From Adhaeribacter swui (GTDB taxonomy: Bacteria > Bacteroidota > Bacteroidia > Cytophagales > Hymenobacteraceae), in assembly GCF_014217805.1 (NCBI RefSeq), contig NZ_CP055156.1, positions 2,238,585 to 2,302,584 of the forward strand: DNA of 64,000 nt, given 5' to 3'. Below are positions 13,048 to 20,050 of the stretch, one piece after another. The notes under the pieces were generated by a model, which was not told the origin of the DNA, made no database searches, and saw only the letters and a program-made list of their open reading frames with translations. The position numbers and the translations under genes are program-made. Positions within the stretch are counted from its first letter, which is position 1, and each line of letters begins with the position of its first letter.

Positions 13048-13077
13048 TTTGAACCTAATGGATAAAAATTATCTTTA
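13048..13077 (+). promoter_or_regulatory. Bacteroidota-type promoter of the orphan transcript
   Basis: TTTG (13048-13051), an 18-base spacer, TATCTTTA (13070-13077). The -33 element is exact and the -7 element has one mismatch to TAnnTTTG. A start near 13084 is expected. Confidence 0.6.
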
Positions 13078-13171
13078 TAACATAGTAGTGAGTGCTACGG
13101 CTTACCGGCCGCGCCATAAGGTGCTTGGCAACCCCGGTGAGATATGTCGGATTTAAAGAAAGGAGGTACAA

Positions 13172-13240
13172 ATGTCTAGTCCCAAACAAATTTTATCAGG
13201 TTTGAATAATGTTGTATCCTTCAACGGAGGTCTGTTGTAA
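13172..13240 (+). CDS. Candidate 22-residue small protein
   Basis: An ATG at 13172 lies four bases after a perfect AGGAGGT (13161-13167), which is unusual in this genome, where Shine-Dalgarno sequences are rare. The ORF encodes a short peptide beginning MSSPKQILSG and ending SFNGGLL. An overlapping eleven-codon ORF begins at 13145 and its stop overlaps this start region, which could allow coupling. A second GGAGGT (13226-13231) lies near the end. The peptide has a hydrophobic C-terminal half but no clear membrane helix. Coding is inferred only from the ribosome binding site and the transcript context. Confidence 0.35.
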   Translation: MSSPKQILSGLNNVVSFNGGLL

Positions 13241-13344
13241 TCCGGTTTTACCGGCTAAAACAGATGAACATTATTTTTAAGATCTGAGAAGATCACTGGT
13301 CTGGAAACAGTCGGTAACTTGGTAAGATTTTAAAGGATTTATAG

Positions 13345-13384
13345 CCTGCCTGCTTCATGTCTAATGAAGCAGGCAGGTTTTTTT
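13345..13384 (+). terminator. 14-bp intrinsic terminator of the orphan transcript
   Basis: CCTGCCTGCTTCAT (13345-13358), loop GTCTA, ATGAAGCAGGCAGG (13364-13377), then seven T. The stem is perfect. Confidence 0.9.
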
Positions 13385-13646
13385 ATGCCCGGGCCAACCC
13401 AAATTCTGTTTCCGCCAAAGTGCAGGCATCAATTATTTAAAAAATTTAATTCCTGATTTTTCCTGTGGTTGATTTGGTTCTGCTGGGCGAAGCTTTATTT
13501 CAAATTGCAATTAGCTGGAAACTTCGTTCGCATGCTGTATATTTACCCGGCACCCCACACCAGAGCAGATTTACTGATAAAGCTAGCTGAATAGGTATTT
13601 CTCTGCCGAGGTGATTTTTAATTTTTTTTGTTTTAGTTCTTTCGTA

Positions 13647-15455
13647 ATGATGCAGCATTCCTTCCGGCAAGTCTATTTGCTTCTGTTTTTTTTAATTTTT
13701 TTATTTTCTCCGGTTAAGTTGTGGGCCTTGGCTAAGGTAAATTATACCTTAAGCATGCCCGAGCCGCAAACGCATTATTTTGAGGTAGAAATGGTGTTTG
13801 ATAATCCCGGTAAAGAGTACCTGGATGTAAAAATGCCCGTCTGGACGCCGGGTTCTTACCTAGTGCGGGAGTATGCCAAGAACGTGGAAGGTTTTACTGC
13901 AACCGCCAACAATCAACCGATCCGGTTTGAGAAAATAACGAAAAATACCTGGCGGGTTTATGCCGCTAAAGCTCCGCAAGTAAAAGTAACCTACAAAGTT
14001 TATGCTTTTGAACTAACCGTACGCACCAGCTTTTTAAACGCCGAGCACGGTTATGTAAATGGCGCCAGCATGTTTATGTACCCCGATGGCTTGCAAAACG
14101 AAGCTTCCGAAATTAAAGTAGTTCCTTACAAAACCTGGAAAGTAGTTTCAACGGCACTGCCGGCAGTGGCTAATCAACCTTTTACTTTCCGGGCCGCTAA
14201 TTACGACGAAGTGGTAGATTCGCCAATTGAAATTGGCAACCACGAGGTATGGCAGTTTGAAGTAAACGGGGTGCCGCACCAGGTAGCTATGTTCGGCGAA
14301 TCGAACGTAAACAAAGAAAAGTTTTTAGCTGATTTAAAAAAAGTTACTTCCACAGCAGCGCAGGTTATAGGCGAAATGCCCATAGACCGGTATTTATTTA
14401 TTATTCATAATTTACCTATTGGCGGCGGTGGCCTGGAACATAAATTTTCTACTACGTTGCACGTTAAAAAATGGAGCTATGGTTCACCGGCCGGGTATAA
14501 CTCCATCATGGGCTTAGTGGCGCACGAATATTTTCATCTCTGGAACGTAAAACGTTTGCGGCCCGCCGGCTTAGGTCCGTTTAACTACGATGCCGAAACA
14601 TACACCAATTTACTTTGGGTTTCAGAAGGATTTACGAGTTATTACGGCAGCATTATTGTGCGGCGAAGCGGATTTCTGACGAACGAACAATATTTAAAAG
14701 CCCAAGCCGACGATATTACTGCTTTAGAAAATGCACCGGGTGTTCGGGTGCAATCAGCGGCTGAGGCCAGTTTTGATGCCTGGATTAAGTATTACCGCCC
14801 CAACGAAAACTCTAATAATGCCGGTACTTCGTATTATTCCAAAGGATCGGTTATTGGCTTGTTGTTAAATCTGGAAATTATGTATCGTACTAAGGGCCAG
14901 AAAAGCCTGGATGATGTGATGCGCCAAATGTATCAACAGTATTACAAAAAGCTGGACCGCGGTTTTACAGAAGCGGAGTTTAAGCAAGCCGCCGAAAGTA
15001 TTGCGGGTGTCAAACTGGATGCTTTTTTCAACGATTACGTGTACGGTACCAAAACACCGGATTATGCTACTTACTTTAATTACGCGGGTTTAAATTTTGT
15101 AAATCAAAACGCCGGTAAGCAAGAAGCGGTGCTGGGGGCTAAATTTTCTTTAACGAGCGGACGGCAAATAGTAACTTCGGTAACGCGGGATGGCAGCGCC
15201 TGGAAGGGAGGCCTGAACGTAAATGACGAAATTCTGGCTTTAAACGGCTACCGCATAACCGATGATGTTAATCAGTCGTTAGCCGGGGCAAGACCAGGGC
15301 AGCAAATAAACTTACTGGTAAACCGCGATGGTCAGATATTAAATTTAGAATTTCCGCTGGTGCCTACCGAAATCCGCAGCTACAAAATTACTCCCTTGGA
15401 AAAGCCAACCAAAGAGCAGGCAAAAATCCTGGCAAATTGGCTGAACGGTAAATAA
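13647..15455 (+). CDS. Exported M61 (glycyl aminopeptidase) family peptidase with PDZ domain
   Basis: The start at 13647 (or the adjacent ATG at 13650) yields about 602 residues with a signal peptide (HSFRQVYLLLFFLIFLFSPVKLWA). An ATG at 13611 would add a non-signal-like lead. The N-terminal beta domain has MPVWTPGSYLVREYAKNVE. The thermolysin-like domain has zinc motif HEYFH followed by WNVKRLRP at about residue 293, and the downstream glutamate in WVSEGFTSYY. A C-terminal PDZ domain contains GGLNVNDEILALNGYRI. Characterised M61 enzymes cleave N-terminal glycine or alanine. It should act in the periplasm. A second M61 gene lies 3 kb downstream on the other strand. Confidence 0.88.
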   Translation: MMQHSFRQVYLLLFFLIFLFSPVKLWALAKVNYTLSMPEPQTHYFEVEMVFDNPGKEYLDVKMPVWTPGSYLVREYAKNVEGFTATANNQPIRFEKITKNTWRVYAAKAPQVKVTYKVYAFELTVRTSFLNAEHGYVNGASMFMYPDGLQNEASEIKVVPYKTWKVVSTALPAVANQPFTFRAANYDEVVDSPIEIGNHEVWQFEVNGVPHQVAMFGESNVNKEKFLADLKKVTSTAAQVIGEMPIDRYLFIIHNLPIGGGGLEHKFSTTLHVKKWSYGSPAGYNSIMGLVAHEYFHLWNVKRLRPAGLGPFNYDAETYTNLLWVSEGFTSYYGSIIVRRSGFLTNEQYLKAQADDITALENAPGVRVQSAAEASFDAWIKYYRPNENSNNAGTSYYSKGSVIGLLLNLEIMYRTKGQKSLDDVMRQMYQQYYKKLDRGFTEAEFKQAAESIAGVKLDAFFNDYVYGTKTPDYATYFNYAGLNFVNQNAGKQEAVLGAKFSLTSGRQIVTSVTRDGSAWKGGLNVNDEILALNGYRITDDVNQSLAGARPGQQINLLVNRDGQILNLEFPLVPTEIRSYKITPLEKPTKEQAKILANWLNGK

Positions 15456-18331: not shown

Positions 18332-20050
18332 TTAGAATTCCTGATTAATCCAATTTTTAAAATTTTCTTTTTGTGCCGGGCTGGATACCGGTAATTTGCG
18401 AACCAGGTATTTGGTTAAATAGGATTTGCTATCGGGTACGAGTGTTGCCGTGCGGAGCATTTTATTGCGGAAAAGCGTTAGTTCAACCGTTTCGGTTTGT
18501 TGCAGTAAACCAGCAAGATTGCCTTCTATCTTGCGTCCATTTAGGGCAACTAACTCGTCGTCGGTGGCTAATACTTGCGCGGCGGGGCTGTTAGGTTCAA
18601 TGTAACTAACGACTAAATGAGTGCCGTTAAAGGTAGTTTTAAAACCAAAACGTGCTTCCGTCATTCCTGCATTGGTTTCGGCGTGTAAAGTACAGCCTAC
18701 GTAGTTTAATGCTCGGTTTAACCACTCGTGCACGGGAACAATGCCGTTAATTACTTCATCAAAATAAGTTTGCAACGATTGCCCCGCTACTGCTTCAACC
18801 AATTGTTGGTAATCTTGTTCGGTGTAGCCCAAGTGCGTTTTGCCAAACTGCTGCCATAAACTCCGCATTACATCGTCCAAGGACTTTTGGTTCGCGGTTA
18901 TTTTTCTGATTTCTAAATCCAGAATAAGGGCCGCAATGCAGCCTTTGTGGTAGATAGATACTTTGCGGTCCGGAATGCCGGGTTTATAACCATCCAACCA
19001 TAAATCAAACGATGAATCAGCCACGGACAAATGGTATTGGCCAAAATCATCGAAATGCTTGCGCAGTACTTCATTTAGTTCGGTAAAATATTGGTCAACA
19101 GAAAATACGCCGCAGCGCGCCAGCAGGTAATCGCCGTAGTAAGTAGTAATGCCTTCGGCCACGTACCCGGTCCGGAAATAATTTTCGCCGGTATAATCAT
19201 ATGGCATCATTTCGGCGGGCCGGATTTGTTTTATGTTCCAGGTATGAAATAACTCGTGGCAACTCACGCCCAGTAACTCTTTATACAAATCCTGCGTCAT
19301 TACTAATTCGCCGGGACCTAGCGTAATTACCGTAGAATTGCTGTGCTCCACGCCGTGGTAAAACCGGTAAGGTAAAATCTGGTTCAGAAAATGATAGTCT
19401 GTTACCGGGAAATCCTGAAATAAAGTAAGTTGCTCTTGCGTAAATTTTTTAAAATCCGAAAGAATAATCTCCCAATCGGGTTGGCAATCACCCTGAAACC
19501 ACACGTGAAAAGGAATATTGTTAACCAGGTATGCTTGGTGTTGCAAGCCAGTGCTGGCAATAAGCGGTGAGTCCACCAATTCTTCATAGGTAGCGGCTTC
19601 TAAGGTGTTTTGATTAATTTGCTTTAAGCCGCAGGCAATTTGCCAGTTGGTAGGTATAGCCAGTTGCAATTGACAAGGCTGATTTTCTTGGCCCACTACA
19701 CTCATCAAACAGTTTACCGGGTTAATATACAACTGCGTTTCATCGAGCCAAGAGCCACCGGCATCCATTTGGTGCGCGTAGAAGTTGTATAATACCGTCA
19801 GCTCAGTTGGTTGGCTTACCGGTATTTGCCAGCAATCTTTCGTTATTTTTTTAAATTTTACAGGTTGTTCCTGCGCATCCACTACCCGGAATTGCTGAAT
19901 TTTTTGCGCAAAATTTTGCAGTTCGTAGCGCCCCGGGCGCCAGGCGGGCAATTGCAATTGCACGGCTGCCGTATCCAGCGCAGGAATTACCATCCGGATC
20001 TGAATAAACGAAGTAAGCGGGTTAGTGTAAGAAATAAAGTATTGAATCAT
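18332..20050 (-). CDS. M61-family peptidase without signal peptide
   Basis: This 572-residue paralogue of the exported M61 enzyme has a beta domain with LPAWRPGRYELQNFAQ. The catalytic domain has HELFH at 265-269 followed by WNIKQIRPAE, and YVAEGITTYYGDYL supplies the third zinc ligand. A C-terminal PDZ-like part contains SPAAQVLATDDELVALNGRKI. It begins directly with MIQYFISYTNP and has no export signal, so it is probably cytoplasmic. Expected activity is removal of small N-terminal residues. It is monocistronic. Confidence 0.86.
   Translation of the reverse strand: MIQYFISYTNPLTSFIQIRMVIPALDTAAVQLQLPAWRPGRYELQNFAQKIQQFRVVDAQEQPVKFKKITKDCWQIPVSQPTELTVLYNFYAHQMDAGGSWLDETQLYINPVNCLMSVVGQENQPCQLQLAIPTNWQIACGLKQINQNTLEAATYEELVDSPLIASTGLQHQAYLVNNIPFHVWFQGDCQPDWEIILSDFKKFTQEQLTLFQDFPVTDYHFLNQILPYRFYHGVEHSNSTVITLGPGELVMTQDLYKELLGVSCHELFHTWNIKQIRPAEMMPYDYTGENYFRTGYVAEGITTYYGDYLLARCGVFSVDQYFTELNEVLRKHFDDFGQYHLSVADSSFDLWLDGYKPGIPDRKVSIYHKGCIAALILDLEIRKITANQKSLDDVMRSLWQQFGKTHLGYTEQDYQQLVEAVAGQSLQTYFDEVINGIVPVHEWLNRALNYVGCTLHAETNAGMTEARFGFKTTFNGTHLVVSYIEPNSPAAQVLATDDELVALNGRKIEGNLAGLLQQTETVELTLFRNKMLRTATLVPDSKSYLTKYLVRKLPVSSPAQKENFKNWINQEF

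Follow-up and report, generated by a model that had tools for sequence, protein, structure and literature searches.

A conserved structured RNA of Cytophagales with an extended Shine-Dalgarno sequence and a short open reading frame, possibly read by ribosomes with an exposed 16S tail

In Bacteroidia, the anti-Shine-Dalgarno sequence of 16S rRNA is intact yet hidden. In Flavobacterium johnsoniae, the 16S tail is sequestered by bS21, bS18, and bS6, and normal initiation is favored by low secondary structure (PMC9976891). In this species, depletion or mutation of bS21 increases the output of reporters with a strong Shine-Dalgarno (SD) sequence, an effect that requires the extended SD; its bS21-poor ribosomes prefer extended-SD messages, and its ribosomes retain an mRNA of this kind when initiator tRNA is absent (PMC9976891). 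The only gene with an obvious SD in F. johnsoniae, and likewise in many Flavobacteriales, is rpsU, and the rpsU SD pattern is found in only ~20% of Cytophagales (PMC9976891). The screen described in that study covered genes.

Other described RNAs join structure to a short reading frame. tmRNA has a short reading frame inside a structured RNA. SgrS/SgrT and RNAIII are dual-function bacterial RNAs. The yfr6 or downstream-peptide RNAs of cyanobacteria (PMC2864571), ~250 nt long, carry a short conserved open reading frame (ORF) behind a 5′ part of conserved structure.

The locus reported here lies in a window of 64,000 nucleotides (the whole stretch of DNA that was analyzed; NZ_CP055156.1, positions 2,238,585 to 2,302,584 of the forward strand) from Adhaeribacter swui, family Hymenobacteraceae. 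The RNA unit occupies window positions 13085-13384, about 300 nt on the + strand, with the following features.

13048-13051, + strand: -33 promoter box TTTG, in the context TTTTTGAACC, conserved in the alignment of relatives
13070-13077, + strand: -7 promoter box TATCTTTA, 18 nt after TTTG
13085-13098, + strand: P1, hairpin at the 5′ end (GTAGT-GAGT-GCTAC), supported by covariation
13101-13141, + strand: P2, second hairpin, with conserved pairs between 13101-13105 and 13137-13141
13114-13128, + strand: P2a, apical hairpin CCA-UAAGGUGCU-UGG, supported by covariation
13157-13167, + strand: extended SD AGAAAGGAGGT, complementary to 11 nt of the 16S 3′ tail (ACCUCCUUUCU)
13172-13240, + strand: 22-codon ORF (ATG at 13172, TAA at 13238-13240), peptide MSSPKQILSGLNNVVSFNGGLL
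13178-13182, + strand: 5′ strand of outer P3, AGUCC, in codons 3 and 4; predicted to pair with 13335-13339
13188-13200, + strand: 5′ strand of inner P3, inside the ORF
13318-13330, + strand: 3′ strand of inner P3, in the segment ahead of the terminator
13335-13339, + strand: 3′ strand of outer P3, GGAUU, in the invariant (A/G)GGATT block
13343-13384, + strand: intrinsic terminator, 14-bp stem CCTGCCTGCTTCAT/ATGAAGCAGGCAGG followed by T7 (U7)

Several of these features had been called in an initial annotation of the stretch. Its TTTG-N18-TATCTTTA promoter held, position included, and is conserved in relatives; its 22-codon ORF and its 14-bp terminator with T7 held as well. The early paired elements that it claimed proved to be P1 and P2, while the long-range helix P3 had been missed. 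The claim of AGGAGGT four bases before an ATG was also correct, but the true SD is longer (11 nt), and what had been seen as an ordinary SD is an extended one, in a group where SDs are scarcely used.

Among the own-family relatives that were aligned, the promoter boxes TTTTGAACC...TAACTTTA are kept. A hairpin terminator is present at the 3′ end of every member read, and its sequences are unrelated among members. The RNA has a promoter of the Bacteroidota type. A transcription start at ~13083-13085, adjoining P1, and a transcription end at the terminator hairpin are inferred from sequence alone; there are no expression data. The promoter scan was of the E. coli type, with Bacteroidota promoters outside its scope, and the terminator scan called 2 terminators, the one at 13343-13384 included, versus 3.2 expected in shuffled sequence. 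Since the two scans alone are at chance level, promoter and terminator alone are weak proof. The unit stands above chance because of its fold energy (for the predicted fold of 13081-13385, z = -5.8, with 0/100 shuffles equally stable), its conservation in relatives, the conserved promoter boxes, and covariation of P1, P2, and P3.

All 6 tested pairs of P1 showed compensatory changes, with 96.6% of cells paired. Changes on both sides were found at 5/5 pairs of P2 and at 4/4 tested pairs of P2a, whose loop (UAAGNU..) is kept in most members and which is missing altogether from the shortest ones. When P1, P2, and P2a were taken together in 49 diverse members, both-side changes occurred at 15/15 pairs and 86% of cells were paired; the covariation score was 0.567, versus 0.253 for shuffled and at most 0.206 for slid controls. 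Inner P3 behaved likewise, with both-side changes at 12 of its 13 pairs (90% paired) and a score of 0.401 (0.226 shuffled, ≤0.181 slid). Cognate P3 strands formed a duplex with a mean energy of -24.4 kcal/mol, versus -15.9 kcal/mol for strands from other clades and -14.9 kcal/mol for shuffled strands. Overall, compensatory changes were found at 27 of the 28 pairs tested in P1, P2, P2a, and inner P3. In the predicted fold, outer P3 can extend inner P3, a pairing supported only by invariance and by G-U/A-U alternation. A Nafulsella member (L104) has a shorter RNA yet keeps the SD, ORF, P3, and terminator. These results show that the RNA is a conserved structured gene with three covarying domains.

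A blastn-type search recovered the unit from 34 of 59 relatives. With a covariance model of its 5′ part, 54 of 291 genomes of the order gave a match, each with a single copy and with E-values down to 1e-32, and there was no match outside the order in the phylum and class samples. A second model, built from more diverse members, concurred; its one additional weak match, in genome G254 (E = 6e-4), was rejected as a false positive, lying inside an apparent protein-coding stretch. All 45 own-family (Hymenobacteraceae) genomes sampled have exactly one copy, and there are members in three further families. Among named genomes, a search for an exact pattern gave at least 120 stretches. Eighty of these loci, all with Bacteroidota titles, are nearly all from Cytophagales, one coming from a metagenome-assembled genome titled "uncultured Bacteroides sp."; genera include Hymenobacter, Adhaeribacter, Pontibacter, Rufibacter, Rhodocytophaga, Chryseolinea, Ohtaekwangia, Chryseosolibacter, Dawidia, and Nafulsella. 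The short ORF is present at all 80.

The SD of this RNA is exceptional. Its 11 contiguous base pairs before the start codon meet the criterion of 9 to 13 bp for an extended SD, and the predicted SD:anti-SD energy is -17.7 kcal/mol. For 35 large genes of the window the median is -0.9 kcal/mol, no better than at mock sites (-1.9 kcal/mol). In the whole genome AGAAAGGAGGT occurs at six sites: three are antisense of 16S 3′ ends, two others have neither an adjacent ATG nor a long frame, and the last is in this RNA, which is thus the sole start-codon-linked copy. AGGAGGT (13161-13167) forms part of it. Nothing else in the RNA is as invariant as the SD region, the AUG, and the first codons. In the predicted fold of the A. 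swui copy, the SD and AUG are only about half unpaired, which weighs against the reading preferred below. One copy (L078, G113:C188) has a damaged SD (GAAAGGTGCTATG) with P1 and the ORF start intact, which could be a real loss or an artifact of assembly, the genome being 75% complete.

The ORF has the marks of a coding sequence. Some genomes are doubly represented in the copy counts, so numbers of distinct sequences are given as well. All 107 copies, which comprise 72 distinct sequences and 60 distinct peptides, have an ORF of 18 to 23 codons that starts with ATG or GTG and ends in a stop, while over the same stretch frame +2 closes immediately and frame +1 at scattered positions. The Hymenobacter copies are three times as variable at third positions as at first or second ones, and their frame 0 has 19 synonymous versus 18 nonsynonymous changes (19/37; expected fraction, 0.29; p = 0.004), with no synonymous excess in frames +1 and +2; one serine codon alternates between TCG and AGT. 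Other clades show bias in the same direction that is individually nonsignificant. The usual N terminus of the peptide is M-S-(S/N)-P-x-x-(I/V)-L; the remainder varies between genera, and the C-terminal half is strongly divergent. RNA pairing alone could explain part of the N-terminal conservation, because the N-terminal half overlaps P3. No peptide match was found in Pfam or NCBIfam up to E = 5, a search with little power for 22-residue queries. We infer that the ORF is probably translated and that its bases are also constrained by RNA pairing; there are no peptide data.

The initial annotation had proposed that covariation or conserved codons would decide between an RNA and a peptide and that a lack of conservation would refute the unit. 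Conservation was found, and both signatures are present (the covarying pairs on one side, the Hymenobacter codon bias and conserved ORF length on the other). Its suggestion of a regulatory RNA, a dual-function RNA, or a small-protein mRNA is supported, and it had left the function open. Its statements that the unit is no simple riboswitch leader and bears no signature of a housekeeping RNA or common riboswitch also stood, there being no conserved codirectional downstream gene, no Rfam match, and a tmRNA gene elsewhere.

Within the family, the neighbors of the RNA are shared: a divergent upstream gene, which we take by eye, without a family search, to be DUF2147-like; usually a convergent gene of ~200 codons; and then a peptidase gene, taken in the same way to be of M61 type. 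The nearest downstream gene within the family is usually on the opposite strand. Outside the family the neighbors are different. That neighbors are shared only within the family speaks against the RNA being the leader of a neighboring gene. In the A. swui window the convergent gene usual in relatives is absent (13384-13611). Two M61-like genes, both of which we take by eye to be of the glycyl aminopeptidase type, lie on opposite strands within 5 kb (13611-15455 and 18332-20050).

No Rfam 15 family scored above its gathering threshold in the window, and at E-values up to 10 there were only chance-level matches (PyrR, miRNA, and similar), far below threshold. The RNA forms a well-supported family, with its three covarying domains, that is missing from Rfam 15. 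The region did not match RF01685 (6S-Flavo), for which a genome-wide search was silent, controls included. tmRNA was considered and rejected: there is no RF00023 or ARAGORN match in the window, and the tmRNA of this genome (RF00023) is located elsewhere. No description of the RNA was found in the open-license literature searched.

Compared with tmRNA, this RNA shares a structured body with a short internal reading frame but has an SD and start codon, and no tRNA-like ends were seen. Like SgrS/SgrT and RNAIII, it is a stand-alone unit of a few hundred nucleotides with its own promoter and terminator and a conserved short ORF in a structured RNA; it differs in that no antisense target was found (rpsU was tested), the ORF lies largely within a covarying long-range helix, and the SD is exceptional for the group. 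It shares the layout and approximate length of the yfr6 or downstream-peptide RNAs but occurs in another phylum and has no Rfam match to them. With the rpsU system it shares a 9- to 13-bp SD against the whole 16S 3′ tail and singularity, rpsU being the single gene with an obvious SD in F. johnsoniae and this RNA having the single start-linked AGAAAGGAGGT; here, however, the SD belongs to a structured RNA of its own, with an ORF of 22 codons. We infer that the RNA, distinct from rpsU and without a match among catalogued families, is akin both to an extended-SD message reporting ribosome state and to a dual-function RNA.

The rpsU gene of A. swui (G000:C3:2436381) is separate from the RNA locus and has no SD. 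Its product, bS21, has a tyrosine at position 54 (counted by hand), the residue mutated in PMC9976891. A strong rpsU SD is absent from all 39 RNA-bearing genomes checked and present in 5 of 24 RNA-free Bacteroidia genomes; the other 19 RNA-free relatives also lack one. This exclusion is consistent with a division of labor but is confounded by relatedness. Since RNA and strong rpsU SD are both missing from most RNA-free relatives, the RNA does not simply take the place of rpsU autoregulation. In three RNA-free Cytophagales genomes of one family, f19 (G134, G069, and G254; L264, L272, and L277), rpsU has a Flavobacteriales-like SD of about -19 kcal/mol.

The reading that we prefer, with as much confidence as doubt, is that of a structured small mRNA, probably dual function, on which ribosomes with a 16S tail free of bS21 initiate. 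Transcription of the RNA, its reading by bS21-poor ribosomes, and P3 or the peptide as the signal are all inferred, without expression data, and the dependence on bS21 is carried over by analogy from Flavobacterium. The stand-alone gene would give a short, strongly folded mRNA with, probably, two roles, as peptide and as RNA. The SD and AUG would lie just outside P3, which would enclose the ORF from codon 3 on. Ordinary Bacteroidia ribosomes would be expected to start poorly here, because their 16S tail is hidden under bS21 and they prefer unstructured start sites. Ribosomes with a free tail (lacking bS21 or its C-terminal contacts) would form the 11-bp SD helix and reach the start codon. Elongation over ~22 codons would then open P3 and free the 3′ half, so that translation or RNA unfolding would provide a readout of ribosome composition; the further step may be action of the peptide, action of the RNA, or sequestration of free-tail ribosomes. 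A bolder and more tentative version is that, in lineages without an extended SD on rpsU, the RNA serves as a dedicated sensor of ribosome composition, conceivably read only by exposed-tail ribosomes, with output via the peptide or the opened 3′ half. The RNA offers a direct, testable handle on exposed-tail ribosomes outside Flavobacteriales, in lineages whose rpsU has no full-length SD.

Two rival explanations are unlikely but merit consideration. First, the RNA could be a ribosome-binding regulator whose extended SD mainly captures 30S subunits (as a decoy, for storage, or as a guide for maturation of the 16S 3′ tail), the short ORF being incidental or merely positioning the 30S subunit. In its favor, the SD, AUG, and first codons vary least of the whole molecule and are surrounded by strongly covarying structure, and F. 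johnsoniae ribosomes hold such mRNA without initiator tRNA (PMC9976891). Against it, the ORF closes at 18 to 23 codons in 72 distinct sequences, whereas a pure decoy needs no frame, and synonymous bias is found in its own frame only, including the TCG/AGT serine switch. Second, the unit could be a plain small-protein gene: a stable mRNA with end-protecting hairpins and a strong SD for high output, without any sensing of ribosome state. The conserved ORF, its own promoter and terminator, and the coding signature support this view. A 5′ hairpin and a terminator are typical stabilizing elements, and both are present. However, compensatory changes keep P3 through the ORF, which a simple gene does not need, and conservation of the C-terminal part of the peptide is weak across genera. 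Furthermore, the full-length SD is no ordinary output booster, since SDs are generally unused in this group (window energies; PMC9976891).

We consider it very unlikely that the RNA is a trans-acting sRNA whose 3′ segment pairs with target mRNAs, with the ORF as a second product. A conserved block lies beside P3, where passage of a ribosome through the ORF could open it, and the tail of one relative (G005) has 13 nt complementary to the rpsU leader; however, the conserved block is predicted to pair inside the RNA itself, as outer P3. A role as leader or attenuator for a downstream gene is all but excluded: attenuators do combine a structured leader with a terminator, as here, but downstream genes vary by family, the nearest is usually on the opposite strand within the family, and the terminator sequence changes freely.

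Further candidates were tried. For rpsU as an antisense target, tail/leader energies were compared with those of shuffled leaders, and only 4 of 26 genomes reached p ≤ 0.05, with no systematic excess; the candidate was not supported. The ATCC common to the tail match and the rpsU leader looks like a piece of the ordinary start region after a TTTGC promoter box. A possible pseudoknot between the P2a loop (CAUAA) and UUAUG ahead of the SD is compatible with some members only. A type I toxin mRNA was rejected because the peptides, as read from sequence, are polar or mixed, with no long hydrophobic stretch. A similar extended-SD short ORF was sought in 27 RNA-free Cytophagales and rejected, as the GAAAGGAGGT-N-ATG matches precede unrelated or implausible frames. 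In two genomes of another Cytophagales family (L304 and L319, in G092 and G064), GAAAGGAGGTTTTT-ATG stands before an apparent ABC-transporter ATPase gene, an instance of an extended SD on a nonribosomal gene.
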